Positions 11,110-39,180 of a stretch of 64,000 nt of DNA are shown here, piece after piece. Under the pieces are notes generated by a model, which saw nothing but the letters and a program-made list of their open reading frames with translations, did not search any database and was not told where the DNA came from. The first letter of the stretch is position 1; every line of letters starts with the position of its first letter. Made by a program: the position numbers and the translations under genes. The DNA comes from Actinoalloteichus hoggarensis. Lineage in GTDB: Bacteria; Actinomycetota; Actinomycetes; Mycobacteriales; Pseudonocardiaceae. The DNA is taken from contig NZ_CP022521.1 of NCBI RefSeq assembly GCF_002234535.1, positions 4,712,001-4,776,000 of the forward strand, read 5' to 3'.

Positions 11110-11158
11110 CACGCCCACCCCGCCCGGCCGACCCCGTCGAGGAAGGACACCCGCCGAC

Positions 11159-14289: not shown

Positions 14290-15219
14290 TCACGTGATCC
14301 GCCGGGCTCCGGCATAGCGGTCGCCGTCCCATCGGTAGGCCCCGATCTGGACGGGTTGGCCGAAGGTGGGTGCGTGGATCATCTGGTCGTTGCCGAGGTA
14401 GAGGCCGACGTGGGTGATCTTGGTTGCGGGGTTGCCGTAGAAGACGAGGTCTCCGGGCAGTAGTGCCGTGTCGTCGGGGAGTCGGGGCCCGGCGTGGTAT
14501 TGGGTGTGGGCTGTTCTAGGCAGGGTGATTTCGGCGGCGGTGTAGGCGGCGGTGGTGAGTCCGGAGCAGTCGAAGCCCGCGTGGCCTGCGTCGGGGCCGT
14601 TGCCGCCCCAGACGTAGGGCAGGCCGAGTTGTCCCATGGCGTAGTTGATCGCCGTCTGCGCCGTGTCGGTGGGTGCCTGGTCGGGGGTGCCGTGGGTGGT
14701 GGAGTAGGTGTCGGCGTGGGCGAGGACTTTCGCGACGTACCAGTCGGCCCGGTTGTAGGCGAAGATCGCGGCGTAGAGGTCGTCGGGGGCGCCGGAGTCG
14801 CAGAGGTAGAGGGCGGCGGCGTGGATGGCGTCGTGCGGGTCGTATCGCGATGGTGGGACGGCGCCGCCGGGTGGGATGCGGGTGGCGATGGAGTCGAAGG
14901 TCGGTTGGAGGAACTGCATCGGGCCGCCTGCTCCGGCGTGGTTCTCGCCGTCGTGGACACCGGGGAGTGGGACGCGTCCGTGGTCGGTCTCGACCTTCCC
15001 GATGGCGGCGAGGACGGACCAGTCGAGGCCGGGGCAGGTCGGGGCGGCCTGGAGGTAGAGGGCTAGGTACTCGCCGGGGATGTCGTCGAGGGCGGTCTGG
15101 CTGGGTGTGGTGTCGGAGCTGCCGAAGAACGTGGCGGCCAGGCCGTGCAGGAGCGCGGCGATCAGGACGGGGATGAGCAGGAGCACGCCGAGACCGACGG
15201 CGGCGGTCTTACCGACCAT
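14290..15219 (-). CDS. Lytic transglycosylase-NlpC/P60 cell-wall hydrolase
   Basis: 309 residues. After an N-terminal membrane helix (about 7-32) come an SLT-like lytic transglycosylase domain (catalytic Glu about 77 in AIGKVETDHG; GGPMQFLQPTF at 99-109) and an NlpC/P60 endopeptidase domain (Cys218 in FDCSGL, His270 in THVGLYLG). The two-activity layout is that of wall-opening enzymes of Gram-positive conjugation systems (CwlT/TcpG type), which cut glycan and peptide so the channel can cross the wall. The gene is the last of the operon and its ATG overlaps the stop of the Replic_Relax gene. An upstream open extension is Arg/Pro-rich and has no function I can see, so I used the ATG at 15219. 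Confidence 0.88.
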   Translation of the reverse strand: MVGKTAAVGLGVLLLIPVLIAALLHGLAATFFGSSDTTPSQTALDDIPGEYLALYLQAAPTCPGLDWSVLAAIGKVETDHGRVPLPGVHDGENHAGAGGPMQFLQPTFDSIATRIPPGGAVPPSRYDPHDAIHAAALYLCDSGAPDDLYAAIFAYNRADWYVAKVLAHADTYSTTHGTPDQAPTDTAQTAINYAMGQLGLPYVWGGNGPDAGHAGFDCSGLTTAAYTAAEITLPRTAHTQYHAGPRLPDDTALLPGDLVFYGNPATKITHVGLYLGNDQMIHAPTFGQPVQIGAYRWDGDRYAGARRIT

Positions 15220-16258
15220 GACGGTGCCTGTCGGGTGTGGTGTCCGTGTCGATGCCGGGCGCCGGGGGGCGTGGGTGGGGTGGCGGCAGCGCCAGGGCTG
15301 GTGAGGTCGGGGCGGTGGTCGTCTGCGGTGCGGCGGGCGGCGGTGTCGGTCTGTTCTGGCGGTGTCGGGCGTCGGGCAGCTGGTGCAGGGCCCGCCGTGC
15401 TCCGGCTCCGGTGGCCTCAAGGGGAAGCCAGATCGGGTCGGCGGGGGTCGCGTCGTCGTGGTCGGCGGTGGCGGTCGCGATGGGGAGACGGTGCGGGTGG
15501 TCGAGGTCGGCCCGGGCGCGGGTCAGGGCGCGGCGGGCGCCGGCTTCGCGGCGGGTGGTGGGCAGCCAGATCAGGAGTGGGGTGGTGATGCCGGTGGCCT
15601 CGGCGAGTCGGGCGTAGCCGTGGAGCTTGCGGGTCACAACGGCCAGCGCCTCGGTGCCGGTGTCGTATTCGAGGAAGAACTCGATGTCGCGGTCGTCGGC
15701 CTGCCAACGGCCGTAGGCGTCGGGCCGGACGAGGTCGCCGAAGTGGGCGGCGACGCGGGTCTCGGACCACCACGCGGTCACCGCGGTGGTGGGGTCGTGG
15801 CGGGCGTGGCTGATCAGGCTGGTGAACCACTGGTTGATGCCGATGGTGTGGGCCAGGTGCAGGCTGTAGGCGATCCCGAAGGCCCGGTCGCGCCGGTAGC
15901 CGAGGTCTTTGACGTCCAGGCCGTCCTCGGCGGCCAGGACACCGGCGCCTGCGGGCGCGAGGACGTAGTGCATCGGGGCGGCCCCGTGGGTGGTGAACGG
16001 TTGGAAGCGGTCCAGGACGCTCCACTGGAACAGCTCCAGCAGGCGCCGGCGGGCCGCGCGGCCGGAGGGGAAGGCCAGGTCGGTGATCTGCTGTGAGGTC
16101 AGGACCCGGTGCTCGTGCAGCATCCGCAGCAGCCACCGGTCCCGCGCGGTCAGCCGCGCGGCGAGAGCGGCTTGGTGCTCGGTCGAGTTCGCGATCCTCG
16201 GACGCGAACGGGCCGGTTGAGACCCGCGCAGGGAGCGTTGCGTAGGAACGGTGGGCAT
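15209..16258 (-). CDS. Replic_Relax (replication-relaxation) family protein
   Basis: 349 residues from the ATG at 16258, six bases after GGAGG. Residues about 30-110 form a winged helix (LTARDRWLLRMLHEHRVLTSQQIT), followed by RRDRAFGIAYSLHLAHTIGINQWF and EYDTGTEALAVVTRKLHGY, which are signatures of the Replic_Relax family; the latter looks like a nuclease-fold core with acidic residues and a Lys. The C terminus is Pro-rich. Members occur on actinobacterial and firmicute plasmids and conjugative elements and are suspected to act in DNA relaxation or processing. As no standard relaxase is encoded in the window, it is the best candidate for nicking or recruiting the transferred DNA, but this is inference. 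Confidence 0.8.
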   Translation of the reverse strand: MPTVPTQRSLRGSQPARSRPRIANSTEHQAALAARLTARDRWLLRMLHEHRVLTSQQITDLAFPSGRAARRRLLELFQWSVLDRFQPFTTHGAAPMHYVLAPAGAGVLAAEDGLDVKDLGYRRDRAFGIAYSLHLAHTIGINQWFTSLISHARHDPTTAVTAWWSETRVAAHFGDLVRPDAYGRWQADDRDIEFFLEYDTGTEALAVVTRKLHGYARLAEATGITTPLLIWLPTTRREAGARRALTRARADLDHPHRLPIATATADHDDATPADPIWLPLEATGAGARRALHQLPDARHRQNRPTPPPAAPQTTTAPTSPALALPPPHPRPPAPGIDTDTTPDRHRHGR

Positions 16259-16296
16259 GGTGAACCTCCGGGGAAGACGGGGCGGACGTGGTCGGC

Positions 16297-18834
16297 TCAG
16301 CCGGTGCGGCGGGGGTCTGTGCTGCGAGGGCGAGGGCCGGGTCGCGGTGGCCGACTGTCCGGTCCGGTGTTCGAGTCCGTGACCGGCGGCGGAGTCGTCG
16401 GCGTTGTGGCGGGCCGGGTGCGCAGGGCTCGTCGGAGGTCGCGTGCGCGGCCGGGGATCGCCGGGGGCAGCGGGCTGGTGGTGAGGGTGAACGGCGGGCT
16501 GTTCTCGCCGTGCAGGACCAGGCGGGTGGCGGCGTGGTAGGCGCCCAGGTGTGCGAGGTCGTGTTCGGTCAGCCTCGGGGCGGTGTGGCGGGCCAGCTCG
16601 CGGGCGTCTTCGGGGGAGGCGGTGAAGAAGATCTTGCTGCGGGCGTTGGTGGAGATCCCCTCCCGGAGATCGCGGGGGAGCTGGCCGAGGTGTTGGTGAG
16701 CCAGGGTCATCGACACCCGGAAACCGCGGGCCTCGGCGAGCATGTCCTCCAGCGGGTAGGGCAGGTTGAGGAAGTTGTGGGCCTCGTCGATGACCATCGC
16801 CGCGTCCCGGCGATCCCGTTGTGGGGTGCGGGCGCGGCCGGTGGTGGCATGCCAGGACTGGGCCACGATCAACGACCCGACCAGCCGGGCCGTCTCCTCC
16901 CCCAACGTGCCCTTGGGGATGCGTACGAGGCAGATCCCGCCGTCGAGCACACCGCTTAGGTCCACTGTGGAGTGACCGGCGGTCAGTGCCCGACGGACGA
17001 AGGGCCGCAGGAGGAACCCCCGGAGTTTGTTCATCAACGGGGAGATGACCTGGGAGCGGCCGGAGTCGGTGAGCTCGTCGTACCAGGCCCAGAATCCGCG
17101 CAGGACGGGGTCGACGACCCCGGCGACGACACGGGAGCGGAACGCAGGCTCGGACAGCAGGCGCGGCAGGTCGGCCAGGGTGGTGACGCCCTCCTGCATG
17201 CGCAGGGTGAGGCAGGCGGCGCGCATCACGTCGTCCGTGCGCGGTCCCCAGAACGCCGAGTACACCCGGCGGAACACGCTGACGAGGTTGTCCACGACCA
17301 GGTCGGTCTCCCCGCCGTCGAGGGGGTTCAGGCACGGCGGTGGTGTCCGGGAGTCGGCGTCGAACACCACCAGCCGATCCGCCGCCGAGACCGGGAGGCG
17401 GGAGAGGACGTCGGTGACCAGATCGCCTTTCGGGTCGATCACCACCAGGCCGCGACCGGCCTCGGCGTCGGCGAGGATCATGTTCGCCAGCAGGGTGGAC
17501 TTACCCGACCCGGTCGCGCCGAGGACGTGCAGGTGATGCCGGGCATCGGGCACGCGCAGCGCGACGGGCTTGCGATGACCGCTGTCGCTGAGTCCCAGGG
17601 GTTTGGTCTGCGGGCCGGGCACGGAGACGCCCGGCGGCGGGGCCAGTGCCTTGGCTCCGGCGCGTTGCACGCCGGGGGTGGCCTCGTCGACCGGCAGGTG
17701 CGCCAGCGCGGCCAACTCGGGCACCGACAGCAGGTCGCCTCGGCCGAGGCGCCGATCGGCGACGACGCGGGCCGAGTGTCGGAGGCGGCGGCGGGTGTAG
17801 TGGTTGTGCTCGGTGTACGAGGCGAACGCCGCCGCCAGGGCGTGGGCTCGACCTCGCGCGGTCTGCCGAGCGAGCCGCACCTCTTCCTCGGAGGCGCCTT
17901 CCGGTAGGTCGGTGGTCACGGCGTAGCGCAGGACGGTCTCGTACTGGGAGCCGCGTTGCTTGGCGACCACCACGCGGTTCTGCGCGGCGTAGTCCAACAC
18001 CGTCTGCGGGTCCCCGCCCGGCCGTGTCGCGGAGGTGGCGCGCCGTCGGGGGGTGCCGCCGGGGGTGAGCAGGTCCAGGACCAGACCGACCGGGCGGGTG
18101 GCCAGGCCGGTGTGCAGGCGTCGGGCCGCACGGCGGGCGCGGGCCACCCGACGGCCGGTCACCGGACGGGCCAATACCTGCACGCACGCGTGTTCTCCCA
18201 GGCCGAGGCCGACGGGGGCGCCGATCAACGCCCGCAACGGGTCGGTGTCGAAGTCGGCTCGGATCGGCAGGGCCTCCGACCGAGCCAGGCGCAGCTGCCC
18301 GGCGACCAGCACCCGACGCCGTCCCGCCTCGACTGCGGGCAGGGGCGGACCGGCGGGTGCGGTGCGGGTGTGCGCGCCGGGCCACGCGGCCTCCACGGCC
18401 CGTTCGACCAGACCGGGCGGGACGGTCCCCGGAACCCACAGCCGCAGAACAACCCCGGCGTCGGAGAACAGGTACTCCCACGCGAGGTGCGGCTGGTTCC
18501 CGACCAGGCGAGCCAGCGTCGGGCGCAGCAGCCCGACGAGGTTCGACCACAGCGCAGGCCCGCCGGCGGCATCGACGGTGGGCGGGGCGAGCACCGTCAC
18601 CACGCGGGCGTCGACCAGCAGCCGCCGATGGCAACGGCGTTGCCACCACACTCGGACGGCGAACAGCGCGGCGAGGGCTGCGAGCGTGGTGGGGCCGACG
18701 ATCGGCCCCCAGGTGAGCGCCCATCGGCCGAGGGCACTCACCACGGTGTGCAGGGTGCCGCCGGGGTCGCGAAGATACTCGCCGACCCAGCCCGCCGCCA
18801 AGACCGACGGGCCGCGGTGCGCAGGTACGGCCAT
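16297..18834 (-). CDS. VirD4/TraG-type coupling ATPase
   Basis: 845 residues from the ATG at 18834 (GGAAGGAGG upstream). An N-terminal membrane helix pair (about 30-60), a long domain with Arg-rich loops, then a FtsK/VirD4-type motor with Walker A GATGSGKST (near 440), IDPKGDLVTDVLSRLP, Walker B region AAMVIDEAHNFLNLPYPLEDMLAEARGF and the AHQHLGQLP motif that follows in TraG/TraD proteins. The enzyme couples relaxed DNA to the type IV secretion channel at the membrane. The C terminus is Thr/Pro-rich. It lies between the VirB4-like and Replic_Relax genes, consistent with a coupling role. All motor motifs look intact. Confidence 0.87.
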   Translation of the reverse strand: MAVPAHRGPSVLAAGWVGEYLRDPGGTLHTVVSALGRWALTWGPIVGPTTLAALAALFAVRVWWQRRCHRRLLVDARVVTVLAPPTVDAAGGPALWSNLVGLLRPTLARLVGNQPHLAWEYLFSDAGVVLRLWVPGTVPPGLVERAVEAAWPGAHTRTAPAGPPLPAVEAGRRRVLVAGQLRLARSEALPIRADFDTDPLRALIGAPVGLGLGEHACVQVLARPVTGRRVARARRAARRLHTGLATRPVGLVLDLLTPGGTPRRRATSATRPGGDPQTVLDYAAQNRVVVAKQRGSQYETVLRYAVTTDLPEGASEEEVRLARQTARGRAHALAAAFASYTEHNHYTRRRLRHSARVVADRRLGRGDLLSVPELAALAHLPVDEATPGVQRAGAKALAPPPGVSVPGPQTKPLGLSDSGHRKPVALRVPDARHHLHVLGATGSGKSTLLANMILADAEAGRGLVVIDPKGDLVTDVLSRLPVSAADRLVVFDADSRTPPPCLNPLDGGETDLVVDNLVSVFRRVYSAFWGPRTDDVMRAACLTLRMQEGVTTLADLPRLLSEPAFRSRVVAGVVDPVLRGFWAWYDELTDSGRSQVISPLMNKLRGFLLRPFVRRALTAGHSTVDLSGVLDGGICLVRIPKGTLGEETARLVGSLIVAQSWHATTGRARTPQRDRRDAAMVIDEAHNFLNLPYPLEDMLAEARGFRVSMTLAHQHLGQLPRDLREGISTNARSKIFFTASPEDARELARHTAPRLTEHDLAHLGAYHAATRLVLHGENSPPFTLTTSPLPPAIPGRARDLRRALRTRPATTPTTPPPVTDSNTGPDSRPPRPGPRPRSTDPRRTG

Positions 18835-18866
18835 GGGGATGCCTCCTTCCACGGTGTCGAACGGGG

Positions 18867-20750
18867 TCAGTCGCTGTCCACGGGCAGGTGCTCGTCCCCG
18901 GTGTCGAACTCGTCGTCCGGCCACTCGTGGGGTGCGGGTCCGAGGTCGACGGCGGCGTCGGTCTGTCCGTCGTCGGCGGCGAGTTCGGCGGGGTTACTGG
19001 TGGCGAGCTGGTGTTCGGTCGGCGATGCCAGGGATTGGAACGCCACCCGTTGTGTGCCCGAGGAGAGCAGTCCTTGGCCGCGGTCGGCGGTGAGGAGGAA
19101 CTGGCGTTCGCCGTCGGAGAGGTCGAAGGTGCGCGTGATCTCGTCGATCGCCTGCGGAGCCTGACGCAGCAGGATCTGGGTGGCGGCGTTGGCGACCACG
19201 GCCTTGCCCAGCTCGGAGCCCAAAACGTCGGCGGTGTCCTGGGTCGCCACGGTCAACCCCGCCCACTGTTTGCGGGAGGCCTTGGCCATGCGGAAGAGGA
19301 ACTCCGCGCCGGCCTGCTCCTTCATCAGCAGCCAGGCCTCGTCGACCACGACCAGGCGAGGGCGGCGGATGGCCGGGTTGGACACCCGCCGCCACACCGC
19401 GTCCAGAGTGAGCAGCGTCCCGATGGGCTTGACCTCGTCGGGCACATCCCGCAGGGAGAACACCACCAGGTGGCCCTCGGGGCGGGTGGTGGTGGGACCG
19501 TCGAACAGTCGCTTGAACGCGCCCTCGACGAACGGGTGCAGGCGGGCCGCCAGATCACCGGCGGCCGGGTCATCGGTGGCGGCGAGGGTGTCGCGCAGAT
19601 CGACCAGCATCGGGGCGGGGCGGGTCCAGGTGCGGGCATCGGCGGTGATGCCCACCCGCCGGTAGGTGGTGGTGATCGCCCGATCCAACGCCGCCCGCTG
19701 CGCCGCCGACAACTCGCCGCCGAGCAGGACCGCGATCACGGTGTGCAAGAACAGCGACCTCCGGAGCAGGGCGTCCTTCGGTGCGGTGCGGCGGCCGTCG
19801 GGACGGGTGTGCACGGGCAGGTCGAAGGGGTTGAGGCGGACGTCGTCGGCGCCCAGGTGGAGATAGGTGCCGCCGACCGCCTGAGCCAAGCGCGCATACT
19901 CGTCCTCAGGGTCGATGACGCAGATCTCGACGCCCCGATACAGGCTGCGCAGCAGCTCCAGCTTGACCAGGTAGGACTTGCCCGAGCCGCTGCGGCCGAG
20001 GATCACCGAGTTGTGGTTGTCCAAGGCGAACCGGTCCCAGTGCACGAGGCCCTGGGAGCCGAGGTTGACGCCGTAGAGCACACCGGAGGGTGCGGCCGGG
20101 GCCGTCGGGTCGGCGGGCGGCAGGTCAGGGCTGGTGAAGGGGAAACCGGCCGACAGGGCGGAGGTGTCGAAGGTACGGCGCATCCCGACCAGGTCCAAGC
20201 CCATCGGCAGCGTCGTCACCCAGCCTTGCAAGGAGCGGTAGGTGGTGGGTTTGGCGTCCAGCAGCAACGACGCGGCCAGTGACCGGATCGCGGCCGTCTC
20301 CTCGACGAGGGCGGTCTCGGTGGCGGCGTGGATCGTCAGGTAGAGCCCGACGCGGAACAGTTTCCCTTCGCCCCGGGCGACGCGAGCCGACAGGTCGTAG
20401 GCATCCTCGGTCGCGGCCTCCACGTGCGGATCGACCAGGCGGCCCTTCTCCGCGGTCTGCCGCCGTCCCGACTCCAACTTCGCCAGCTGCCGCTTCAGCC
20501 GATTCGCCGCCGTCACCGGATCGACCGGTTCGACGTGCAGCGACACGTCGATGCGTCCCGGATAGGTCAGCAACGGCTGCAGCCAGCCGGGATGGACCTC
20601 GCGGGGATATCCGGCGATGGCGAGGGACGTCACCCACTGAGACCCGATCTGAAGATGTCGCGTGCCCACGACCAGCGACTCCGGCGTGAACGACGCCGCG
20701 GCGGCACTCGACCCGGAGACGTCGGCTCGAGGACGGCGAGGTCGTCTCAC
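18867..20750 (-). CDS. VirB4-like conjugation ATPase
   Basis: 627 residues from the GTG at 20750, whose last bases overlap the stop of the PrgI gene (GTGA) and which has GAGGTGG upstream; a GTG at 20759 is an alternative. The N-terminal half is the VirB4 channel-binding domain (PREVHPGWLQPLLTYPGRID and RLKRQLAKLESGRR). The motor has Walker A GRSGSGKSY (252-260), ICVIDPEDEYARL, Walker B RLVVVDEAWLLM and VATQDTADVLGS. VirB4 ATPases energise type IV secretion channels at the cytoplasmic membrane. The acidic C-terminal tail (from about 600) is typical of actinobacterial versions. Together with PrgI and the TrbL-like protein it forms the core of the secretion apparatus. Confidence 0.9.
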   Translation of the reverse strand: MRRPRRPRADVSGSSAAAASFTPESLVVGTRHLQIGSQWVTSLAIAGYPREVHPGWLQPLLTYPGRIDVSLHVEPVDPVTAANRLKRQLAKLESGRRQTAEKGRLVDPHVEAATEDAYDLSARVARGEGKLFRVGLYLTIHAATETALVEETAAIRSLAASLLLDAKPTTYRSLQGWVTTLPMGLDLVGMRRTFDTSALSAGFPFTSPDLPPADPTAPAAPSGVLYGVNLGSQGLVHWDRFALDNHNSVILGRSGSGKSYLVKLELLRSLYRGVEICVIDPEDEYARLAQAVGGTYLHLGADDVRLNPFDLPVHTRPDGRRTAPKDALLRRSLFLHTVIAVLLGGELSAAQRAALDRAITTTYRRVGITADARTWTRPAPMLVDLRDTLAATDDPAAGDLAARLHPFVEGAFKRLFDGPTTTRPEGHLVVFSLRDVPDEVKPIGTLLTLDAVWRRVSNPAIRRPRLVVVDEAWLLMKEQAGAEFLFRMAKASRKQWAGLTVATQDTADVLGSELGKAVVANAATQILLRQAPQAIDEITRTFDLSDGERQFLLTADRGQGLLSSGTQRVAFQSLASPTEHQLATSNPAELAADDGQTDAAVDLGPAPHEWPDDEFDTGDEHLPVDSD

Positions 20751-21880
20751 CTCGACCACCTCAGTCCGTCGTCGGCCTCGGCGGGCACGGCTCCGCCGTA
20801 CGCAGCGAGACCGTGTTCGTCGACCTCGGAAGTGGGGGTGGGTTCGCTGGTGATGACGTCGTCCGCGCCGGCCAACGAGGCCGAGGCCGGGATCAGCGAG
20901 TCGGGGTCGCAGGCAGCGGCGAGCACGGCGGTGGCCTGCCCGGCATCCAGCGGTGTCACCACGATCCCGGCCGGGGTGAAGAGTTCGGCGGCCTCACTCA
21001 CCCGCCGCAGCAGCCGTGTCTCCGCCGCCCGCCGTGCCGCCTCCGTCGCCTCCGCGGTCGGACCGCGACGCCGGAACAGTCCGGCGAGGGTCGCCGTCGG
21101 GGACGCACCGCCCAAGCCCGGATCGGTCGTGGTGTGGACGGGTTCGCGCAGGATCAGCAGGATCTGACGGCGCAGCAGGTCTGCCTGGGTGTCGAGGTGG
21201 ACCAGGTAGTCGGCGTGTTCCCGCGCGGCGTCCTCCAACGCCGGGTGCGGCAACGTCGGGGCACGCTCACGCAGCTCGCCGATCTGCGGGGACAGGTCGA
21301 GGTGCTCCGCGCGGACCAGGATCTGCACCGGGGCGGTCAGCGAGTGCAGATACCGGCCGAACGTCGCGACCAGCGACTCCTGCTCGGTCGGGGTGCGCAA
21401 CGCGAAGTTCACCGCCCCGCAGGTCGCCACCGCCGCCAAGCCGTCCCGACCGAGATCGATCACTCCGGCGTCGGTGACCGCGTGGGCGGGCAGCCGCAAC
21501 TCCGCAGGCTGGGTGGTCGCACTGCTGCCGTCGAGGTCGCGGTAGGACGTGCGGGCGGTGAGCCAGTCCGGGGCCGGAGGAATCCCCTCCGGTGCGGCGA
21601 CGCGCAGAGCCGGAGTCCGGCGCTGCCGCCACGCCGCCACCAGCAGCCGATCCAGGGTGATGCCGTCGCGTCGACCGAGGGCGATGACGGCCGCGGCGAC
21701 ACCGACCGGAACACCCAGGGCGAGGAACACCGGCAGCGGCACCAGATCACGGACCAACATCCAGGTGCCGTAGAGGACGATGCCGGTCACCGCCAGGATC
21801 GCCAACTGACGGGCGGTCAGGGTGCCGACCACCTGGTCCGGTCGGTCGACGTCGGCGGGAATGCGCACAGGACTGGTCAT
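20747..21880 (-). CDS. PrgI-family (VirB3-like) conjugation membrane protein
   Basis: 377 residues. The first 80 residues are a PrgI/VirB3 domain: VRIPADVDRPDQVVGTLTARQ followed by two membrane helices (LAILAVTGIVLYGTWML and PVFLALGVPVGVAAAVIAL). In Gram-positive type IV systems this small membrane domain docks on VirB4. The remaining 290 residues (helical, TEQESLVATFGRYLHSLTAPVQILVR and an Arg-rich helix bundle) resemble the fused cytoplasmic part seen in actinobacterial PrgI proteins and might be an extension of the VirB4 N-terminal domain. ATGA overlaps link it to the TrbL-like gene upstream, and its stop overlaps the VirB4 start. Confidence 0.82.
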   Translation of the reverse strand: MTSPVRIPADVDRPDQVVGTLTARQLAILAVTGIVLYGTWMLVRDLVPLPVFLALGVPVGVAAAVIALGRRDGITLDRLLVAAWRQRRTPALRVAAPEGIPPAPDWLTARTSYRDLDGSSATTQPAELRLPAHAVTDAGVIDLGRDGLAAVATCGAVNFALRTPTEQESLVATFGRYLHSLTAPVQILVRAEHLDLSPQIGELRERAPTLPHPALEDAAREHADYLVHLDTQADLLRRQILLILREPVHTTTDPGLGGASPTATLAGLFRRRGPTAEATEAARRAAETRLLRRVSEAAELFTPAGIVVTPLDAGQATAVLAAACDPDSLIPASASLAGADDVITSEPTPTSEVDEHGLAAYGGAVPAEADDGLRWSR

Positions 21881-24039
21881 GACGACTTCTCGCCGCCTTT
21901 CGGATCGGTGCGCCGCGACGGCGGCGCAGGAGGACGGGGTGTGCGCGGCAGGCCCAGTGGCAGCGGCAGTTGACGGCCGCGACGAGGCGGCGGCGTGGAG
22001 GCAGGGGCAGCAGCACCGGGCGACGGTGGTGGGGAGGGTGTCGTGCGGTGGATGCCGTCCAAGGGCAGGCGGTACTGGCCGGTGCGATCCGCTCGGGTGC
22101 CCTGATAGGGATCGAAGGGCAGCTGCGGCTGCCGCACCCGAGACCGCGACGGCGGACGCGGCGGCGGTGACGCGGAGCGGGGGGGAGGCGACGCCGCCGA
22201 GCGCGACGTGCGGTGGACGCCCTCCAGCGGCAGGCGGTACTGGCCGGTGCGGTCTGGGTGGTTGCCCTGATACGGGTCCAACGGCAGTTCCAGCTGCTTC
22301 CCGCCGCGCCGCCCGTGCCCGTGCGGTGACGGCGCGGCTGGATGGTGGCCCGGCTGCGGTGCGGGTCGCCGCTCGACGTCGAGGGGCAGTCGGTACTGGC
22401 CGTCACGGCCCAGCACGGGGCGGTTCTCCGGCCAGTCCTTTCCCAACGGCAAAGGCAGCTGCTGTCCCGCCGCAGACGACGCCGCCGCGTTCGACGGGGA
22501 CGGCGTCCCGTGGCCGGATGTGCCTGTCGAGGGTCGTCGAGTCTTCCGCACTCCAGGCAGCGGCAGGACGTACTGCCCGTTCGCCGCCGTCCGTGTCGAC
22601 CAGGACCTCCCGCCAGCGGGTGGTGGGGACGCCCTACCACCCGTCTGGACGGGAGTGGTCCCGCCAGCGGGAGGCGAGGTCCCGCCGGTCTTGCCCGAGC
22701 CCGAACCACGTCCTCGGCCGCCTCCGCCGAGGAGCCCGAACGTCTTGTACGCCAGCCATCCCTTCGCCAGGGAGCCGATCATCGACCGGCCGCCGCCGGA
22801 GACCGACGACATCACCCAGAACGGGATCTTGAACAGGATGTACATCAAGGCCAGGGCGACGACGAGGTTGACGAGGCTGCTGCCGTCGGGGCCGAACAGG
22901 GTGAACCCACCGGGGCCGAGAAAGACCCGCATCGCGGTGATCAGGGTGAGGCTCTGCACCACCTGGATCGCCAGGCACCCGCCGAAGGCCTTCCACCACC
23001 ACTTGGCGATGCCCTCGGTGTGCGGAAGGGCGTGGAACATCAAGGCGATCGGTGCTCCGACGACCAGGATGATCGTCATCGCGACCCGCACCACATAGGT
23101 CACCAGCAACGCGAGGAGCAACCCGGCCAGGACCAGGCCGAGGATGATGATGAAGAACCCACCAGCCAACGAACCTAAGATCAAGTCCTCGAGGTTCTCC
23201 GCCGCCGAGGTCGCCTCGACGCCGCCGTCCATCACCGCCGCCGACAGCGCGTTGGCGACCGTGATCGCCTGGGTGGCCACGAACAGCGACAGCGCCCCGG
23301 CGAGGAACCCCACCGCGATGCGCGGAACGAGTTCCTTGATCGTGTAACGGGTCTGCAGGGACTCGTAGGACATGATGAGGATCCCGGCGATCAACACGAG
23401 CACGCCGTAAGAGGCGAGCAGGATCTGCCAGGAGGACTCCCACAACTCCCCCACCCGGGGCAGCGAGTCCGGTGTCGGGGTCGTCAACAACGTCCGCCCC
23501 AACAGATCCAACAACGGGTTCAACGCATCGACGACCACGCTGCGGAAGAAGTCGTCCACGGCCTCGTCGATGCAGGCACCGATGTCGGTCAGCCCACAGG
23601 ACGACTCCTCCTCCGGCACCTCGCTCTGCCCCGGATCCTGCGGCGGGGTCTCCGGCTCGGGTTCCGGCGCCGGCTCGGGAGACGGCTCCGGCGGCGCCGG
23701 AGGTGCCACGCACTCCGGTGGCAGGGCCGCCGGAGGTTGAACCTGGCATTCCTCCGGCAGTTCCGCGCCAGGGTCACCGGGGTCGGGAAGGCACAGGACG
23801 GGGTCGAAGTCGGGCAGCTCGCACGACGGCGGAGGCGGCGGATCCGGAGACGGCAGCTGCGCCGCCGCCGGAAGCCCGCCGACACCCATACCGGCCAGCA
23901 TCAAGGCGACGACCACCACCAGGCGGCCCAACAGCCGGCGAGGCGGGACGGGCGGTTGGACACTCGAAGACCTGGGGTCTGCGGCAGGCGCGGGTTCCGC
24001 GCGTCGACGGCTCACCGGCTCAGACCCCGACGATGCCAC
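21877..24039 (-). CDS. VirB6/TrbL-like channel protein with Q-x-x-L-P-L repeat tail
   Basis: 720 residues. A basic N terminus and hydrophobic signal-like helix (about 36-62) are followed by an extracytoplasmic Pro/Glu-rich segment with several Cys, then a polytopic core (about 190-420) with at least five membrane helices and the family motif MIGSLAKGWLAYKTF near its end, as in TrbL/VirB6-type proteins of Gram-positive conjugation systems. The last 270 residues are a low-complexity cytoplasmic tail carrying eight short motifs of the form Q-x-x-L-P-[LF], strictly alternating between QY[RV]LPL and Q[LP]xLP[LF] types; two of the units also share DPYQG and the sequence HRT. The tail is unusual. 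It overlaps both neighbours. Confidence 0.82.
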   Translation of the reverse strand: MASSGSEPVSRRRAEPAPAADPRSSSVQPPVPPRRLLGRLVVVVALMLAGMGVGGLPAAAQLPSPDPPPPPSCELPDFDPVLCLPDPGDPGAELPEECQVQPPAALPPECVAPPAPPEPSPEPAPEPEPETPPQDPGQSEVPEEESSCGLTDIGACIDEAVDDFFRSVVVDALNPLLDLLGRTLLTTPTPDSLPRVGELWESSWQILLASYGVLVLIAGILIMSYESLQTRYTIKELVPRIAVGFLAGALSLFVATQAITVANALSAAVMDGGVEATSAAENLEDLILGSLAGGFFIIILGLVLAGLLLALLVTYVVRVAMTIILVVGAPIALMFHALPHTEGIAKWWWKAFGGCLAIQVVQSLTLITAMRVFLGPGGFTLFGPDGSSLVNLVVALALMYILFKIPFWVMSSVSGGGRSMIGSLAKGWLAYKTFGLLGGGGRGRGSGSGKTGGTSPPAGGTTPVQTGGRASPPPAGGRSWSTRTAANGQYVLPLPGVRKTRRPSTGTSGHGTPSPSNAAASSAAGQQLPLPLGKDWPENRPVLGRDGQYRLPLDVERRPAPQPGHHPAAPSPHGHGRRGGKQLELPLDPYQGNHPDRTGQYRLPLEGVHRTSRSAASPPPRSASPPPRPPSRSRVRQPQLPFDPYQGTRADRTGQYRLPLDGIHRTTPSPPPSPGAAAPASTPPPRRGRQLPLPLGLPRTPRPPAPPSRRTDPKGGEKSS

Positions 24040-24505
24040 GGAGGATCTCCACGACCAGCGGCGCCAACGCCGCCAACCCGTAACCCCACCCGGCGGACTT
24101 GAACGACCCCTTGGCCTTCTCCACCTCGCCCGGATCCCCGGCGGCCATGACGTACCGGACGCCGCCGACGGACAGGAACACCGTCGCCAACCCGGCGAGG
24201 ATGCCCATCAACCAGTCGCGGACGTTGGTCAACACCGCGTCCACCGACTGGGCCTGCGCCGCCGCGGAGGACTCGAACAGCAACGACCCGGCCACGATCA
24301 ACATCGAGACCGCCAGAACACGAGCGCCCGGCCGCAACCGACCGCGAGGTGAGCGACCAGACATCCGAGGTCCTGCGCCGGCGACCGGCACGGAATACCG
24401 GCCGCGCCGCCGCCGCAGAGGGCGTGGTCGTGTTTGGTCGGATCCGACCGCATCCACGCGGTCGTTCGGCTCGTCACGCAACGGGGGAACATCGTTCACA
24501 CGCAT
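24020..24505 (-). CDS. VirB2/TrbC-like conjugative pilin
   Basis: 161 residues from the ATG at 24505 (GGAGG upstream). A 65-residue basic leader precedes a signal-peptide-like helix (LAVSMLIVAGSLLFESSAAAQA, about 66-85). The mature part is two membrane helices joined by GGVRYVMAAGDPGEVEKAKG, the loop typical of VirB2/TrbC-type pilins of Gram-positive systems. Such pilins line or extend the type IV channel. The 20-base overlap with the TrbL-like gene and 10-base overlap with the sigma-like gene indicate coupled translation. The long basic leader is odd; an internal ATG (MSGRSPRG, about residue 48) could be the true start. Confidence 0.8.
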   Translation of the reverse strand: MRVNDVPPLRDEPNDRVDAVGSDQTRPRPLRRRRGRYSVPVAGAGPRMSGRSPRGRLRPGARVLAVSMLIVAGSLLFESSAAAQAQSVDAVLTNVRDWLMGILAGLATVFLSVGGVRYVMAAGDPGEVEKAKGSFKSAGWGYGLAALAPLVVEILRGIVGV

Positions 24506-25488
24506 CGGGGGACCTCCGGGGTCGAGGACGACAGCGACGAGGACTCGGGTGAGGTCGAGGACCGCCCGTGCACCTGAACTCCGGAATCACGCCGTCGTTT
24601 CGACCGGAGGGCTCCGGTTTTCTCCGACGAACCACAGCGCGGTCGTGTCACCGACGGCGACGGATCAGGGGTGGTGGCGGCCGTGGTGACGGTCAGGGTG
24701 TCGGCCACCCGACGTGCCGGATCGCCGCCGTCATCCGCGTCGTCGGCGTCCTGGAGGAGGTAGGCCGCGAGCCGGCGCTCGGCGCGGCGCCGGGCCTGAT
24801 GCACCGTCGCGTAGGAGGCATCCCGTTCGGCGACGACCGCGGCCAGCGGCCGGCCCTCCAACCGGGTCGCGGCGATCAGTTCCGCGTCGGCGGCGGTGAT
24901 CAGCTTGTCGGCGACGGCGCGCGCCAGAACGAAGTCCGGGTGCCCCCACGGCGGGACCGGCGCGGCCGCGCGGACGGCGTGACCGGTGGGCTGCGGCGCG
25001 TCCAGGGCCTCGCGCACAGCTGCGTGCCCGGCGCGGTAGGCGGCCCACCGCAGCCGCAGCATCACCCGAGGACGACGCAGATCCACCCGCGGCAGCTCCG
25101 CGAGGAACCCGGTCAACACCGCGGCGTGGATGTCGGCGGGATCACCGGCGAACCGCGCCGACAACCGGCTCGCGATGCCCAACAAGGCGGGCAGGCCGAC
25201 CCCGACGCAGCCCACCGTCCACGCCGCGCCGTCGGTCCGTGCCAACAGCACCAGGTGCGCCCACACCGAGTCGCGCACCGACTGCGGGCACCGTCGTGCC
25301 AACAGCCGATCCCGCACCTCGTTCAACGGCACCCGCCGGTCCGGGAAACCGGGAAACAGGCGGCCGTCCACGGCCAACGGGTGCGGCCCGGTGAGCAACA
25401 TGTCGAAGGCCGTCCGCGCGGTGTCCAACGGCATCGCCGCGGAGGAATAGCCGCCCCGGCGGTCAGGGAATGAGTGGGGAGAAGACAT
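24496..25488 (-). CDS. Sigma-70 region-4-like HTH protein heading the conjugation operon
   Basis: 330 residues from the ATG at 25488 (AGGAG about 12 bases upstream); an ATG at 25533 would add 15 residues and lie across the inverted repeat. The middle is helical, with DLRRPRVMLRLRWAAYRAGH and GHPDFVLARAVADKLITAADAELIAATRL, followed by EGRPLAAVVAERDASYATVHQARRRAERRL, a helix-turn-helix like that of sigma region 4. Proteins of this type recur at the head of actinomycete conjugation operons and probably regulate them. The last 60 residues are Ser/Pro-rich and without clear structure. Role as regulator is inferred. Confidence 0.65.
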   Translation of the reverse strand: MSSPHSFPDRRGGYSSAAMPLDTARTAFDMLLTGPHPLAVDGRLFPGFPDRRVPLNEVRDRLLARRCPQSVRDSVWAHLVLLARTDGAAWTVGCVGVGLPALLGIASRLSARFAGDPADIHAAVLTGFLAELPRVDLRRPRVMLRLRWAAYRAGHAAVREALDAPQPTGHAVRAAAPVPPWGHPDFVLARAVADKLITAADAELIAATRLEGRPLAAVVAERDASYATVHQARRRAERRLAAYLLQDADDADDGGDPARRVADTLTVTTAATTPDPSPSVTRPRCGSSEKTGALRSKRRRDSGVQVHGRSSTSPESSSLSSSTPEVPRCV

Positions 25489-25501
25489 GAACGTGTGCTC
25501 C

Positions 25502-25529
25502 TGTCGACGACGAGAAGGTGACGTCGACA
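25502..25529. promoter_or_regulatory. Palindromic operator candidate before the conjugation operon
   Basis: TGTCGACG (25502-25509) and CGTCGACA (25522-25529) are perfect 8-base inverted arms separated by 12 bases (28 bases in all, about two helical turns between arm centres). They end 13 bases before the start codon of the sigma-like gene, so a bound protein would block transcription or translation of the operon. Confidence 0.6.
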
Positions 25530-25544
25530 GCAAGTCACAACGGG

Positions 25545-25583
25545 TACTACACCCCTACTACCGAATTACTACACGACTACTAC
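25545..25583. repeat. Four TACTAC hexamers at exact 11-bp spacing
   Basis: TACTAC begins at 25545, 25556, 25567 and 25578, so the four copies are exactly one helical turn apart; intervening bases differ (ACCCC, CGAAT, ACGAC). They are 57-95 bases upstream of the start of the conjugation operon (read on the - strand as GTAGTA). Such phasing is seen in protein-binding iterons and operators. The partner cluster is at 25685-25734. Confidence 0.8.
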
Positions 25584-25684
25584 CACCCCAACAGGAAAGA
25601 TCACCTTTCGGCTCCACGACGGTCGCCATGCATCTCTGACAGAGATCAGCCGACCTCTGCCGAACGATGTCACGAGGATCGGCG

Positions 25685-25734
25685 GTAGTACCGTCTGACC
25701 TGCTTCTCGCTGAGCCTGTAGTAGGTCGGTAGTA
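25685..25734. repeat. Three inverted TACTAC hexamers on the same 11-bp grid
   Basis: GTAGTA (TACTAC on the other strand) begins at 25685, 25718 and 25729: spacings of 33 and 11 bases, i.e. three turns and one turn. Read on the - strand two of the copies continue as TACTACCG, like one copy of the left cluster. The two clusters face each other across about 100 bases. Confidence 0.75.
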
Positions 25735-26067
25735 GCTCCGTGGCAGGCCAGGGCGGACTACGCCACGACCAAGAATCACGCTGGAAGATTCATGGACGAG
25801 AACCGGTAAGGAAACGAGCCACCGGCCCCGTGATCCCGCGCTGCTGAACCACGTCACATGCCCATGGTGACGACGAAATACCGAAGTCCGACACCTCGAG
25901 CGTGATGCCGTCGAATCCCCGCTGAGTCCGCGTCCGAGTCACGTCCACGGACCTGGCTGCGGGAACGCGGTGGGAGGTAAAACGAGGATCGGCTGTCGAA
26001 AACAGGTCCATATCACGGAGTTCAGGGATGTCAGCGAAACACCACTCCCCCGCCGTGGAGGCCACCC
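25735..26067. other. Intergenic region between divergent conjugation and methyltransferase operons
   Basis: No supported gene. It holds the ribosome binding site GGAGG (26056-26060) of the following gene and presumably divergent promoters. With the hexamer clusters and the operator palindrome to its left, it forms a regulatory or transfer-origin-like region of about 570 bases. Confidence 0.5.
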
Positions 26068-26982
26068 ATGAACTCACCCGATCACCCGCCCACCCCGCGA
26101 CACACCCGCCCGACCCGGGCACCTCGAACATCCCACCCGACGACGGCGGGCCGCCGGACGCCGGCCGCCCGGCCGACACGGATGCCCGCGATCCCGCCGA
26201 CCGTCTGGTCCGCCCCGACCACTTCCCCCAGCGCGCCCCGAGATCGGTGGCCGGTCGGCGTGATCTCCCAGATCGTGACGTCCTTCAGCCGGCGCGGTGA
26301 CCACGTCCTGATCGTCACCGCCGACACCACACCCACCGAACGGACCGACTCGACCGGGACGGCGACCAGCACCGGGGCCGGCGCTGTCGAGGCGGCGTTC
26401 AACGCCGTCGCCAGCGCTGGTCGTATCGCCGGGATCACGATGTTGTGGAACCGGCCGCACTCCCACCACGCCCCGGCGCCGCCCTACTGGGCGAGTCTCA
26501 TCGGCCGCCCCGACCACCCGGCCGACGACCAACGCCCACGGCCGGACCCGATCGTCGAGGACGACAGCGCCCAACCGAGCGCGGATCTGATCATCGCGGC
26601 CGTGCCGCCGTCCTGGACCCGACACCGCCGCATCGACCACCTGGCGTTGCAGGCCGCCCGCCTGCTGCGGACCGGCGGAATCCTCGCCGTCCTCACCCAC
26701 AGTGACGTCCGGGAAGGGCAGCTGATCGACCCGACCGGCCCGATCGTCACCACCGGCCAGAACGCCGACCTGCTCTACCTCCAACACATCGTGGCACTCC
26801 ACCACACCACCGACGAGGCCTCGAGCAGCGAGGCCGTCGGCACCAACGCACCGGGTGACGCAGGGCCACAGCCACACCGACAGGTGCACTCCGACGTCCT
26901 GATCTTCGCCCAGCCCCACGATCACGAACCCCCTCCGACGGCGGCCGTCACCGCGACCGTTCCCCCACAGGTCATCCGATGA
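26068..26982 (+). CDS. Catalytically degraded DNA methyltransferase paralogue
   Basis: 304 residues from the ATG seven bases after GGAGG. It follows the downstream methyltransferase point for point: VWSAPTTSPSAPRDRW (partner: VWLTAQQSPGAQRKGR), motif I position GDHVLIV at 77-83 (partner GELVLDP), motif IV position ADLIIAAVPPS at 172-182 (partner ALVVTSPPYG), RLLRTGGILAVLTH (partner ALLRPGGHIAVTL), and HSDVLIFAQP (partner HEDVLIFRTP). The catalytic SPPY and the DPMCGIG loop are lost, so it probably cannot methylate. It likely serves as a structural or DNA-binding partner of the active enzyme encoded next to it. Confidence 0.68.
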   Translation: MNSPDHPPTPRHTRPTRAPRTSHPTTAGRRTPAARPTRMPAIPPTVWSAPTTSPSAPRDRWPVGVISQIVTSFSRRGDHVLIVTADTTPTERTDSTGTATSTGAGAVEAAFNAVASAGRIAGITMLWNRPHSHHAPAPPYWASLIGRPDHPADDQRPRPDPIVEDDSAQPSADLIIAAVPPSWTRHRRIDHLALQAARLLRTGGILAVLTHSDVREGQLIDPTGPIVTTGQNADLLYLQHIVALHHTTDEASSSEAVGTNAPGDAGPQPHRQVHSDVLIFAQPHDHEPPPTAAVTATVPPQVIR

Positions 26983-27032
26983 CTCCCCGACCCGTCCCCC
27001 ACCACGACGCCCACGAGCAGAGAAGGACTCCA

Positions 27033-28130
27033 ATGCCGCAGACCCCTGAGTTCCCCGGCGACGACAGCCCGACCGTGCCGATTCCCCGCACCGAGATCGA
27101 CCGGATCGACCGACGGTCCCGCCGCCGCACGGCACGTGCGGTGAACGAGATCCCCTCGCCCCATCCGGTCCCGAGATCGGGGTCGGGGTCGGGGCCGGTA
27201 TCGGGGTCGGTGTGGCTGACCGCGCAGCAGTCGCCCGGCGCTCAACGCAAGGGCCGCTACATCGCCGAGTCCACCGCGCATCCGGCGAAGATGCTCCCGG
27301 CGGTCGCCGCCCACGCCATCGCCCACTACACCAAGCCCGGCGAACTCGTCCTGGACCCGATGTGCGGCATCGGCACCACCCTCGTGGAGGCCGCCCACCT
27401 CGGCCGTCGAGCGATCGGCCTCGAGTACGAACCGCACTGGGCGCAGGTCGCCGCAGCGAACCTCGACCTCGCCCGCCGCACCCGCCCCGACGTCGACGCC
27501 GCGGTGTTCCAGGGCGACGCCCGCCAACTCCTCCACGCCCTCCCCGATGAGATCCGAGGTCGGGTCGCGCTGGTGGTCACCTCGCCGCCCTACGGGCCCT
27601 CCACCCACGGGCAGGTCTCCGTCGTCCCCGGCGGCGGCGTCCACAAATACCACCACCTCTACGGCAACACCCTCGACCGAGGGAACCTCGCCAACATCGG
27701 CCACCACCGCCTGCTCTCCGGATTCACCCGCATCCTCACCGGCTGCGCCGCCCTGCTCCGCCCCGGCGGGCACATCGCCGTCACCCTCCGGCCCTGGCGC
27801 GAACACGCCGAACTGATCGACCTGCCCGCCCAGATCCAGGCCTGCGGCACCCACGCCGGACTCATCCCCGTCGAACGCTGCGTCGCCCTGCTCGCCCGCC
27901 ACGACGACAACGGCCAGATCATCCCGCGCGGTTCGTTCTTCCAACGGGACTTCCTCCGCAAACAACGCGAACGCGGACTGCCCCTCCACCTCATCGCCCA
28001 CGAAGACGTCCTCATCTTCCGCACCCCACTGACCGAAGACGACGCCGAACAACCCACCGTGCCCGCCAACCCCGACCGAACCCCGTCCTCCCGGACGCCG
28101 ACGAAGCTCGCCTCCCTGCAGGCCGCATGA
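27033..28130 (+). CDS. Amino (N4/N6-type) DNA methyltransferase
   Basis: 365 residues from the ATG at 27033 (AGAAGGA seven bases upstream); an ATG at 26979 overlapping the previous stop would add 18 residues. Motif X-like HPAKM (83-87), motif I DPMCGIGTT (108-116, S-adenosylmethionine binding), the acidic GLEYEP and motif IV TSPPYG (183-188, catalysis on an exocyclic amino group) appear in the order X-I-IV. The residues fit an adenine-N6 or cytosine-N4 enzyme; TRM11-like methyltransferases show a similar order. It has no restriction endonuclease beside it. It forms an operon with its degraded paralogue, and its stop overlaps the next small gene (ATGA). Target base and site cannot be told from sequence. 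Confidence 0.82.
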   Translation: MPQTPEFPGDDSPTVPIPRTEIDRIDRRSRRRTARAVNEIPSPHPVPRSGSGSGPVSGSVWLTAQQSPGAQRKGRYIAESTAHPAKMLPAVAAHAIAHYTKPGELVLDPMCGIGTTLVEAAHLGRRAIGLEYEPHWAQVAAANLDLARRTRPDVDAAVFQGDARQLLHALPDEIRGRVALVVTSPPYGPSTHGQVSVVPGGGVHKYHHLYGNTLDRGNLANIGHHRLLSGFTRILTGCAALLRPGGHIAVTLRPWREHAELIDLPAQIQACGTHAGLIPVERCVALLARHDDNGQIIPRGSFFQRDFLRKQRERGLPLHLIAHEDVLIFRTPLTEDDAEQPTVPANPDRTPSSRTPTKLASLQAA

Positions 28131-35475: not shown

Positions 35476-36444
35476 TCAGAATTCGTCCGAGACGCTGTGG
35501 TTGATGGTGCCGGGTACTGCTCCGAGAACGGGGTCCCACAGGTCGACGAGCTGCTCTCCGGGGTCGGGGTCTTCGATGGACGTGTCGGGGTCGAGGAGGC
35601 GTTGCACGTCGGTCACCACGCGGGGCAGCAGTTTGAACAGGCGTAGGCCGTCGCGAAAGCTGCGGCGAGCCTGCTGTTCCGGCTTGTCGGCGTCGTGCAG
35701 AGAGAAGGCCAGGGGGATGGTGAGTTCGGCTTTGTAGAGGTCGGCGATGTCGTAGACGAAGGCGTGTTGGTTCCCGCTGTGGATGAAACCGAGTCCGGGG
35801 GAACATCCCATAGCGGTCAGGGCGGCGTGAACGATGCCGTAGAGGCTGGTGTTCGCCGCCGACAAGGCAAGGTTGACCGGGTCTTGGTTGTCCCAGTCGT
35901 CGGGGTCGTAGCTACGGCGGAAGCGGCTGATCTTGTATTGCTTGGCGAGTAGCCGGTAGAGGGCTTTGACGCGTTGACCTTCCATGCCACGCAGGCCGGC
36001 GAAGGTCGTCTGGGGAGGCACGGTGGCCACGCCGAAGCGCTGCTCGTACATGCGGATCGCCACGCGAAGGCGGCTGGCTTCGTCAGCCCAGGCGCGTGCT
36101 TGGCGTTCAAGCCAGGTGGTGGTCAGGCTGGCGGGAGTGAATCCGGCGTAGCAGCGCACGCCTCCTGAACCGGTGATGAGGACCGTCGTACCGTGTCGAA
36201 CGAGCGTGGTGAGAGCTCGGGTGGTGATGGAGACTCCGGGGCCGAGCAGGACCGCGTTCAGTGCGGCGGTGGGCAGGTAGACGGTTTCAGTGCCGTGGAT
36301 CGGGCTTTCGACGACGGCTAGGACCCCGGTGTCGTCCTGTAGCACGCGGACGATGTCGAGGTAGAGAAAGGACAGTGAGTCGGCGACGCGGGGAAGCATC
36401 GCGACGGTCGGGCGGGCCAGGCGGCGCCGTGCTTGGACGTTCAT
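35476..36444 (-). CDS. cas1: Cas1 (type I-E) spacer integrase
   Basis: 322 residues from the ATG at 36444, which overlaps the cas6e stop (ATGA). The N-terminal beta domain (DSLSFLYLDIVRVLQDDTGV) is followed by the VLLGPGVSITTRALTTLVRHGTTVLITG segment, and the helical domain has the metal-binding Glu region MEGQRVKALYRLLAKQY, SAANTSLYGIVHAALTAMG, IHSGNQHAFVYDIADLYKAELTIPLAF with its His and Asp. These are the residues that bind metal and catalyse transesterification of prespacer ends. The C-terminal tail is acidic. The enzyme looks intact. Confidence 0.95.
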   Translation of the reverse strand: MNVQARRRLARPTVAMLPRVADSLSFLYLDIVRVLQDDTGVLAVVESPIHGTETVYLPTAALNAVLLGPGVSITTRALTTLVRHGTTVLITGSGGVRCYAGFTPASLTTTWLERQARAWADEASRLRVAIRMYEQRFGVATVPPQTTFAGLRGMEGQRVKALYRLLAKQYKISRFRRSYDPDDWDNQDPVNLALSAANTSLYGIVHAALTAMGCSPGLGFIHSGNQHAFVYDIADLYKAELTIPLAFSLHDADKPEQQARRSFRDGLRLFKLLPRVVTDVQRLLDPDTSIEDPDPGEQLVDLWDPVLGAVPGTINHSVSDEF

Positions 36445-37085
36445 CGCGCCGGCGCCAGGGTAAGCAGACCGCAGCCGTAGGCCTTGCCGCGGCCGATGCC
36501 GTCGAGCAGCCGGCGGCGGAGGAGGTCGGCGTCGGTGATCAGTGCTCGTCCGTCGAACAGTGTGCGGGCGTGGCGGATCTTGTCCGCGCTGTCGGCCCGC
36601 TCGCCGCGGGCCGAGCCCAATGGGGTTGTCAGCACGGTCTGGACCTGAAGTCCGGAGGCCTCCGCGTGGCGATGCCACCACTCTTCGGCCTCGGCGCCGT
36701 GAAGAGGCAGGACGGCGGTGAGGTTGCGGGCGGCGCGCGTCGTCTTACCGAGTCTGCGGATGGCGTTGCCCGCGATGCGGTAGTGCACGGCCCTGCCGGG
36801 ACGTAGTCCCTCCACGAGTGGGTCCAGGTTACGGGTGGTGGCGGAGCCATAGTGCTCGGGCAGGGCGTGGAGGTCGGGGGGAACCTGACTCTGCAGGAGG
36901 ATCTCCGCACCAGTCGCGGAGGTCTCGACTCGGAAGAGCACGCCGAGGTGTCGCCGGGGATCGTCACCGAGGTCGTCGGGGAAGAGGGAGAGCAGGCGGT
37001 GGTGCATTCCTACTGCGCTGGCGAGGTCACGTCGTGCCTGGCGCAGACGCATGTCGGGTTTGATCTGGGTGAGCCAGAGTGTCAT
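36441..37085 (-). CDS. cas6e: Cas6e CRISPR RNA endonuclease
   Basis: 214 residues from the ATG at 37085 (ATGA overlap with cas5). It shows the Cas6e features: N-terminal LTQIKPDMRLRQARRDLASAVGMHHRLLSLFPDD (with the HH/LFP segment of the first RAMP fold), HLGVLFRVE, and the C-terminal glycine-rich loop GIGRGKAYGCGLLTLAPAR that all Cas6e proteins share. It cuts the repeat transcript after the hairpin and stays bound to the crRNA in Cascade. The short stem with a GNRA loop in the repeats is its expected substrate. Confidence 0.94.
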   Translation of the reverse strand: MTLWLTQIKPDMRLRQARRDLASAVGMHHRLLSLFPDDLGDDPRRHLGVLFRVETSATGAEILLQSQVPPDLHALPEHYGSATTRNLDPLVEGLRPGRAVHYRIAGNAIRRLGKTTRAARNLTAVLPLHGAEAEEWWHRHAEASGLQVQTVLTTPLGSARGERADSADKIRHARTLFDGRALITDADLLRRRLLDGIGRGKAYGCGLLTLAPAR

Positions 37086-39123: not shown

Positions 39124-39180
39124 GGGTTCTCCTGTGGAGCGGTGGGAGTCGGGGCCGGGTCGGGTAAATGTTGCGACCGG

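Follow-up and report, generated by a model that had tools for sequence, protein, structure and literature searches.

Upstream of a predicted conjugation operon of Actinoalloteichus hoggarensis, a preliminary description of a 64,000-nucleotide stretch of DNA (hereafter the window) recorded seven TACTAC hexamers phased at 11 bp, which it took for an origin of transfer, a replication origin of the excised element or a cooperative operator. Three candidate binders were proposed, i.e., a sigma-like protein, a double winged-helix protein and a Replic_Relax protein. This locus therefore raises the question of whether such an array is a conserved site, which protein is likely to read it, and what it may control.

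The array and the conjugation module around it

Recounting the hexamers showed every position and spacing to be exact, with TACTAC starting at 25545, 25556, 25567 and 25578 on the forward strand and GTAGTA at 25685, 25718 and 25729, and the two clusters do face each other, with 101 bases between them (25584-25684). The array consists of the following elements:

25545..25583, forward strand: left array of four 11-bp units, each starting TACTAC and pointing rightward (shuffle p 0.001)
25685..25690, reverse strand: inner right-hand copy, GTAGTA on the forward strand, separated by the core element from the remaining right-hand copies
25696..25703, no strand given: core element TGACCTGC, +11 from the inner copy
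25718..25734, reverse strand: right array of two 11-bp units, TACTAC read leftward
25740..25745, reverse strand: degenerate fourth right-hand copy, TGCCAC, from the triple search with at most three mismatches

The 33-bp interval of the right-hand side is thus not empty, since TGACCTGC begins at 25696, 11 bases on from 25685. The array is real, and chance does not produce seven phased hexamers: 5000 Markov-1 simulations of 300 bp with the same composition gave a mean of 0.29 hexamers and a maximum of 5, and none contained more than one 11-bp pair, against four observed. The whole window contains 14 hexamers where 1.44 are expected, and the seven outside the array are scattered (28632, 30549, 41031, 44598, 53245, 57304 and 59095). 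Across the 6.6 Mb genome, the exact pair TACTACN5TACTAC occurs four times, all in the array (three on the forward strand and one on the reverse). Allowing at most one mismatch adds a single genomic place (677026; a reversed-pattern control gave three), and the triple with at most three mismatches is found genome-wide only at the array, in three overlapping or neighbouring places.

The first hexamer lies 57 bp from the likely ATG of the sigma-like gene, in the interval between two divergent operons:

24496..25488, reverse strand: sigma-like gene, 330 aa, likely start ATG 25488 (the longest open reading frame starts at TTG 25533)
15209..24505, reverse strand: transfer operon with T4SS pilin, TrbL-like, PrgI, VirB4-like, TraD-like and Replic_Relax genes
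26068..28130, forward strand: divergent conserved operon with protein X (304 aa) and a DNA-methyltransferase-like protein

The TrbL-like assignment is a weak Pfam match, below the cut-off, and the best NCBIfam match of the VirB4-like protein, conju_CD1110, reaches 299 bits, below the cut-off of 325. The Replic_Relax protein matches phrog_9381 ("replication initiation by nicking", E 8e-38), and its open reading frame overlaps the TraD-like one at the far end of the transfer operon, opposite the array. Protein X (26068-26982) has no match in Pfam, NCBIfam or PHROGs; it adjoins the methyltransferase-like gene and, by eye, resembles a degenerate methyltransferase.

A match to the sigma-like protein is present in 137 of the 297 genomes sampled from Pseudonocardiaceae. 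The relatives, of which we kept 80 of 212, include Saccharothrix, Amycolatopsis, Lentzea, Actinokineospora, Saccharopolyspora, Pseudonocardia, a few Streptomyces and one Phytoactinopolyspora. By tblastn, the 123 loci found with the sigma-like protein as the query contain the pilin in 120, TrbL in 118, the methyltransferase in 118, PrgI in 115, VirB4 in 111, TraD in 108, Replic_Relax in 100, protein X in 76 and NlpC/P60 in 69. A search of 72,556 plasmid records returned just one distant match to the sigma-like protein (29% identity). This is a conserved conjugation module carried in the chromosomes of Pseudonocardiaceae and some other actinobacteria.

Several further features of the window were recorded. 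Positions 1-12000 are 89-90% identical to DNA of genome G076 and have just short matches in G043; the left end (635-3818) encodes T2SSE and T2SSF proteins, which are Tad/type II secretion-like. The sole tyrosine-recombinase (PF00589) match inside the window, at 47591-47872, scores 28.7 bits, just over the cut-off, and type I-E-like CRISPR genes (Cas1, Cas5, CT1975 and Cse2) occupy 35476-39969. Before the rightward operon, at 26016-26033, and likewise in locus L214, there is a CGGAGTTCAGGG-GTGTCA-like element; this pattern occurs in 58 of 124 loci, at a median of 467 bp upstream of where the sigma-like gene starts, and is absent from the other 1.38 Mb of the loci. A second copy with one mismatch lies at about 4.07 Mb of the same genome, near what resembles, by eye, a CRISPR-type repeat array, and no homologs of 11 module proteins were found beside it.

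Constant period, changing word and constant elements

The preliminary description had staked its reading on the presence of phased hexamers at this position in homologous elements. We compared 124 loci, obtained from 181 by removing identical proteins (leaving 125) and interrupted frames (L116, L132); 100 loci were fetched among the matches listed, and 30 (L004-L033) were inspected by eye. A motif-free search for four units, confined to 300 bp upstream of the sigma-like homolog, identified an array phased at 11 bp in 95 of the 124 loci at p≤0.05, and in 78 at p≤0.01, with a word that is mostly not TACTAC. Control periods of 7, 9, 10, 12, 13 and 15 gave 1-3 loci each at p≤0.05 and periods 8 and 14 gave 13 and 12, the latter probably because many words repeat internally at three bases (1000 shuffles for period 11, 200 for the control periods). 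Of the 29 loci in which no array reached significance (L112, L121 and L126-L129 are examples), 16 have a loose core pattern and 20 have AAGATC or GATCTT. Keeping one locus per protein cluster at 10, 20 or 30% distance left the array in 62 of 81, 34 of 49 and 15 of 24 loci (63-77%).

Pooled autocorrelation over 400 bp upstream was highest at lag 11 (z 25.4), with 15.6 at lag 22 and 7.7 at lag 33; it was also high at lags 3 (18.9) and 25 (8.8), and these loci are related. In 66 of 90 loci, the right cluster matches the left profile in reverse complement, against 26 of 90 for a same-strand control. Three-unit arrays of each locus's own word numbered 251 in the region, a count that includes the units from which each word profile was built, and one elsewhere in 1.45 Mb of the same 90 loci, i.e., within the DNA examined there is one array per element. 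As judged from these comparisons of related loci, the site is conserved, with its period and its facing cluster constant while the word changes between elements. For example, TACTACC is the word of the window and of L034, L045, L055 and L066, and other elements have CTnGTACCGAA, AATACCACGGA with TACTAG, CGCCACCRAAC, ACAAGAAAAGA or TAGCAGACG. In three loci (L056, L153 and L155), GTACC and TnACC units appear by eye to alternate, forming a 22-bp super-repeat. We also considered whether coresidence drives the divergence of the word, and this was unsupported: the 11 same-genome pairs are no more distant than others (mean word distance 0.40 vs 0.41), nine of them lying at 0.41-0.50 and two being close (0.14 and 0.23).

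Three further elements of the region recur across the family, in addition to the core:

25597..25602, forward strand: AAGATC, the region's most enriched constant hexamer in the family
25501..25530, reverse strand: leader hairpin, arms 25501-25509 and 25522-25530, overlapping the AGGAG ribosome-binding site
25498-25502: AGGAG ribosome-binding site of the sigma-like gene

The core is the family's most constant element, with the consensus TGASCTGC (C4 100%, G6 99%, A2 92%) and a median position 206 bp upstream of the start codon, figures that hold for the 100 best of 124 loci, selected by their own match to the core motif. Among 71 loci, inverted words start at +22 from the core in 17, +33 in 16, -12 in 13, +23 in 7, -11 in 6 and +44 in 5, so that the distances are mostly steps of 11, with fixed distances in just part of these loci. 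Read leftward, the right-hand word nearest to the core in the window is about 21 bp from it, centre to centre; the usual distance between -35 and -10 elements is about 23. The right-hand word and the core could, hypothetically, form a -35/-10-like promoter pair. Standard sigma70 promoters were not found in 25450-26100, where 0.1 would be expected.

AAGATC or GATCTT is present in 94 of the 124 upstream regions, where 13.6 would be expected. The mean number of GATC sites per 310 bp is 3.8 in these regions, compared with 1.2 in simulations and 2.1 across whole loci. Such enrichment of GATC between the arrays, next to the operon that encodes a methyltransferase-like protein, would be compatible with a methylation-sensitive switch.

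In 111 of the 115 loci with a recognised ribosome-binding site, the predicted leader fold pairs at least three of four bases of this site, a count with no shuffled control of its own. Leader folding energies have a mean z of -2.4 against mononucleotide shuffles and fall below -2 in 81 of 124 loci. Since 39 leaders aligned with MAFFT too loosely for pairs to be counted, arms were instead swapped in the 66 less redundant of the 110 loci having both arms: own arms gave -17.4 kcal and swapped arms -13.0 (permutation p 0.0005), with the own partner best in 8 of 66 loci and in the top tenth in 35. This closer fit between the arms of one locus shows selection on the inverted repeat, be it as RNA or as DNA. 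No known RNA family was detected in 24900-26400 at E≤1.

Fold of the sigma-like protein and covariation with the word

The sigma-like protein of the window matches no Pfam, NCBIfam or PHROGs family, and Sigma70_r4 and r4_2 match weakly in 4 and 7 of 54 homologs. The structured parts of its AlphaFold model are confident, with block pLDDT mostly 96-98. Foldseek with the whole model listed 50 PDB matches, 48 of them sigma-factor or sigma-complex entries by description, with none at E≤0.001 (best 0.0095) and a poor overall superposition. The N-terminal domain folded on its own reached pLDDT 91.7 and superposed on region 2 of M. tuberculosis SigC (2o7g_B) with TM 0.73 and rmsd 2.9 over 91 columns (E 0.86), and on sigmaS entries with rmsd 2.1-2.5 over 87-91 columns. 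This identifies a sigma2-like domain by fold alone, the E-values against SigC and sigmaS being 0.6 to 1.6. Four helices are predicted in the region-4-like helix-turn-helix (HTH), at residues 184-193, 199-210, 215-222 and 226-251. The predicted model thus resembles sigma factors, region 2 well and region 4 less firmly.

We compared word distance with protein distance in 90 of the 95 array loci (those with the array starting at 35-110 bp), minus L066, in which the protein is without the HTH part. Among 20-residue blocks of the sigma-like protein in these 89 loci, the best predictor of the word is the following:

24796..24855, reverse strand: HTH block, codons 212-231 of the sigma-like gene

This block has both the top correlation (0.599) and the top partial correlation (0.303) with word distance, and remains top in 55 less redundant loci and in the 72 loci with p≤0.01; the sigma2-like part contains a second peak (0.58) among the 20-residue blocks. 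The maximum over 549 blocks, taken every five residues in eight other backbone proteins, is 0.452, and the HTH block on the loci used for these proteins gives 0.596-0.636. Taking whole parts and proteins in the loci common to all (75, then 68), the correlations over 68 loci are 0.606 for the HTH and 0.609 for the N-terminal part of the sigma-like protein, followed by the methyltransferase (0.45), TraD (0.41), X (0.40), VirB4 (0.38), Replic_Relax (0.33, and 0.23 in the block analysis), PrgI (0.31), pilin (0.30) and TrbL (0.15).

Among single residues, H230 ranks first (partial 0.320), A227 fourth and Y226 tenth, all three in the predicted helix 226-251; H170, A118 and V71, outside the HTH, are also among the top six. 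Using the recognition helix by itself as the predictor brought no gain over the whole HTH (partial 0.009). By our manual alignment, H230 presumably corresponds to R588 of E. coli sigma70, and Y226 and A227 to R584 and E585. These three sigma70 residues interact with the -35 box, as stated in a passage of PMC4943231. Permutation confined to narrow protein clusters leaves a weak HTH effect (p 0.047 and 0.020); with broad clusters, p is 0.003. Crude typing of the words did not give a one-to-one relation: two helix types accompany CCACC words, and a mixture of helices accompanies TACTAC words.

Candidate readers, likely function and relation to known systems

The covariation could reflect linkage and common descent alone, in which case it would not point to the binder, a reading that overlaps those considered below. 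The sigma-like gene is the nearest to the array, its N-terminal part correlates with the word as well as the HTH does, and significance within narrow clusters is weak. Linkage alone, however, predicts a peak at the N-terminus, because the N-terminal half of the gene is nearer to the array, whereas the peak within the protein is at the HTH, farther away, in all three locus sets, and we consider this explanation unlikely. Among the binders that had been proposed, we favour the sigma-like protein, since the word covaries with its HTH. Slightly less likely again is binding of the words by an OmpR/SARP-type winged-helix activator, either the host's or one that went unrecognised, that recruits RNA polymerase. 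According to a passage of PMC10936776, a SARP site comprises direct repeats spaced at 11 or 22 bp, of which the 3′ one stands 8 bp from the -10 element. When the right-hand word is read leftward, the family profile shows a TATAAC-like stretch about 7-8 bp away from it; the window, however, has TTCTCGCT at that place and no TATA-like box, and no SARP/OmpR-type Pfam match was found among the conserved backbone genes scanned. Nor would a host factor account for words that differ within one genome, as in the nine of 11 pairs above.

An origin of transfer, or of replication by nicking, with accessory sites bound by the Replic_Relax protein, would account for an array that adjoins the transfer operon, has a single site per element in the DNA examined and has an inverted repeat beside it, in a module where 100 of 123 loci have a Replic_Relax match and the Replic_Relax protein of the window matches phrog_9381. 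Yet this protein correlates just 0.23-0.33 with word distance, and such weak covariation disfavours it as the reader; its gene is at the operon's far end, and in 111 of 115 loci it is the ribosome-binding site that the inverted repeat covers, all of which makes this origin improbable. The word diversity also looks similar to that of ParR/parC, where, according to passages of PMC9426499, repeats differ between families and a minimum of two 11-bp repeats is required by ParR of R1; the array might accordingly be a centromere or a set of plasmid-type partition or replication iterons (ParR/parC- or TubR/tubC-like). We regard this as highly improbable: no filament protein or ParA was found among Pfam matches to the conserved neighbours, the ten AAA_31 (ParA-type) matches of the genome all lie outside the window, coresident copies are no more different in word (0.40 vs 0.41), and the 72,556 plasmid records hold the one distant match at 29% identity.

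Of the functions first proposed for the array, the cooperative operator is therefore the best supported, in that the site is conserved, single within the DNA examined, located between divergent operons and covaries in its word with the HTH, and the transfer or replication origin is less supported. We put at roughly 60% the probability that the array is an autoregulatory operator/promoter, bound cooperatively by the sigma-like protein, that controls the transfer operon and probably the methyltransferase operon. We infer that this protein, encoded by the first gene of the transfer operon, would bind the 11-bp words through its region-4-type HTH, several molecules being lined up along a single face of the DNA helix, in two clusters that point at each other, with cooperativity suggested by the phasing of the words. 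Once bound, it would control transcription of its own operon, i.e., the leftward transfer machinery, and probably that of the divergent, rightward methyltransferase operon as well, and the hairpin over the ribosome-binding site would limit translation of the sigma-like gene. The protein may work together with RNA polymerase, as a sigma factor, or may bind DNA as a free regulator. Since the clusters point toward the middle, transcripts started from one would cross the other, and mutual interference between the divergent operons is conceivable.

A more specific form of this autoregulatory reading is tentative and, in our judgement, doubtful: a sigma factor turned array-binding switch, in which region 4 would read a fast-changing 11-bp word in two facing phased clusters around a constant -10-like element, a lock rewritten in each lineage that would set transfer and methylation genes, transcribed divergently, against each other. 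If the autoregulatory reading holds, a large family of conjugation modules in actinobacteria would probably have its master switch in the sigma-like protein and its array. The 89 paired word and HTH sequences make the DNA code of a sigma4-type helix directly testable. Phased operator arrays are already known, and what is unusual here is a sigma-fold protein as the likely reader. In the open PMC subset, represented by titles and the starts of abstracts and with subscription papers outside it, we found no paper announcing the array.

With the SARP/OmpR-type operators of Streptomyces (the afs box and others), the array shares direct repeats of 11 (or 22) bp near a promoter in actinobacteria; unlike them, it has two facing clusters and a word that differs between elements, no SARP gene was recognised in the module, and it is a sigma-fold protein that covaries with the word. 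ParR/parC of plasmid R1 and its relatives likewise have 11-bp repeats (R1) and repeats specific to each type in homologous systems, whereas here the clusters are mutually inverted, the module is scarce in plasmid records and no filament protein was recognised. The sigma2-like domain and region-4-like HTH of the model recall ECF-type sigma factors (SigC, SigH, SigK and others), as the distance between word and core recalls that of -35 and -10 elements, but the protein of the window has an extra N-terminal segment, a long low-confidence tail and no Pfam match, and its word is present in several phased copies, some facing the other way. The transfer system of Streptomyces, TraB/clt, has what we take to be a clustered 8-bp repeat, GACCCGGA; this repeat gave 154 window matches at up to one mismatch, against 149 by chance, and none in 25545-25734, so that we rejected this identity for the array. 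The genes of the module resemble those of FATA-type conjugation modules, of which we take TraD-, PrgI- and pilin-like genes to be the mark, and conju_CD1110 is the best NCBIfam match of the VirB4-like protein, below the cut-off. The FATA type, so named in PMC3158045, occurs in Firmicutes, Actinobacteria, Tenericutes and Archaea according to a passage of that paper. This likeness is known from gene matches, and the module differs from FATA modules in that a sigma-like gene heads the operon and a methyltransferase operon diverges from it.
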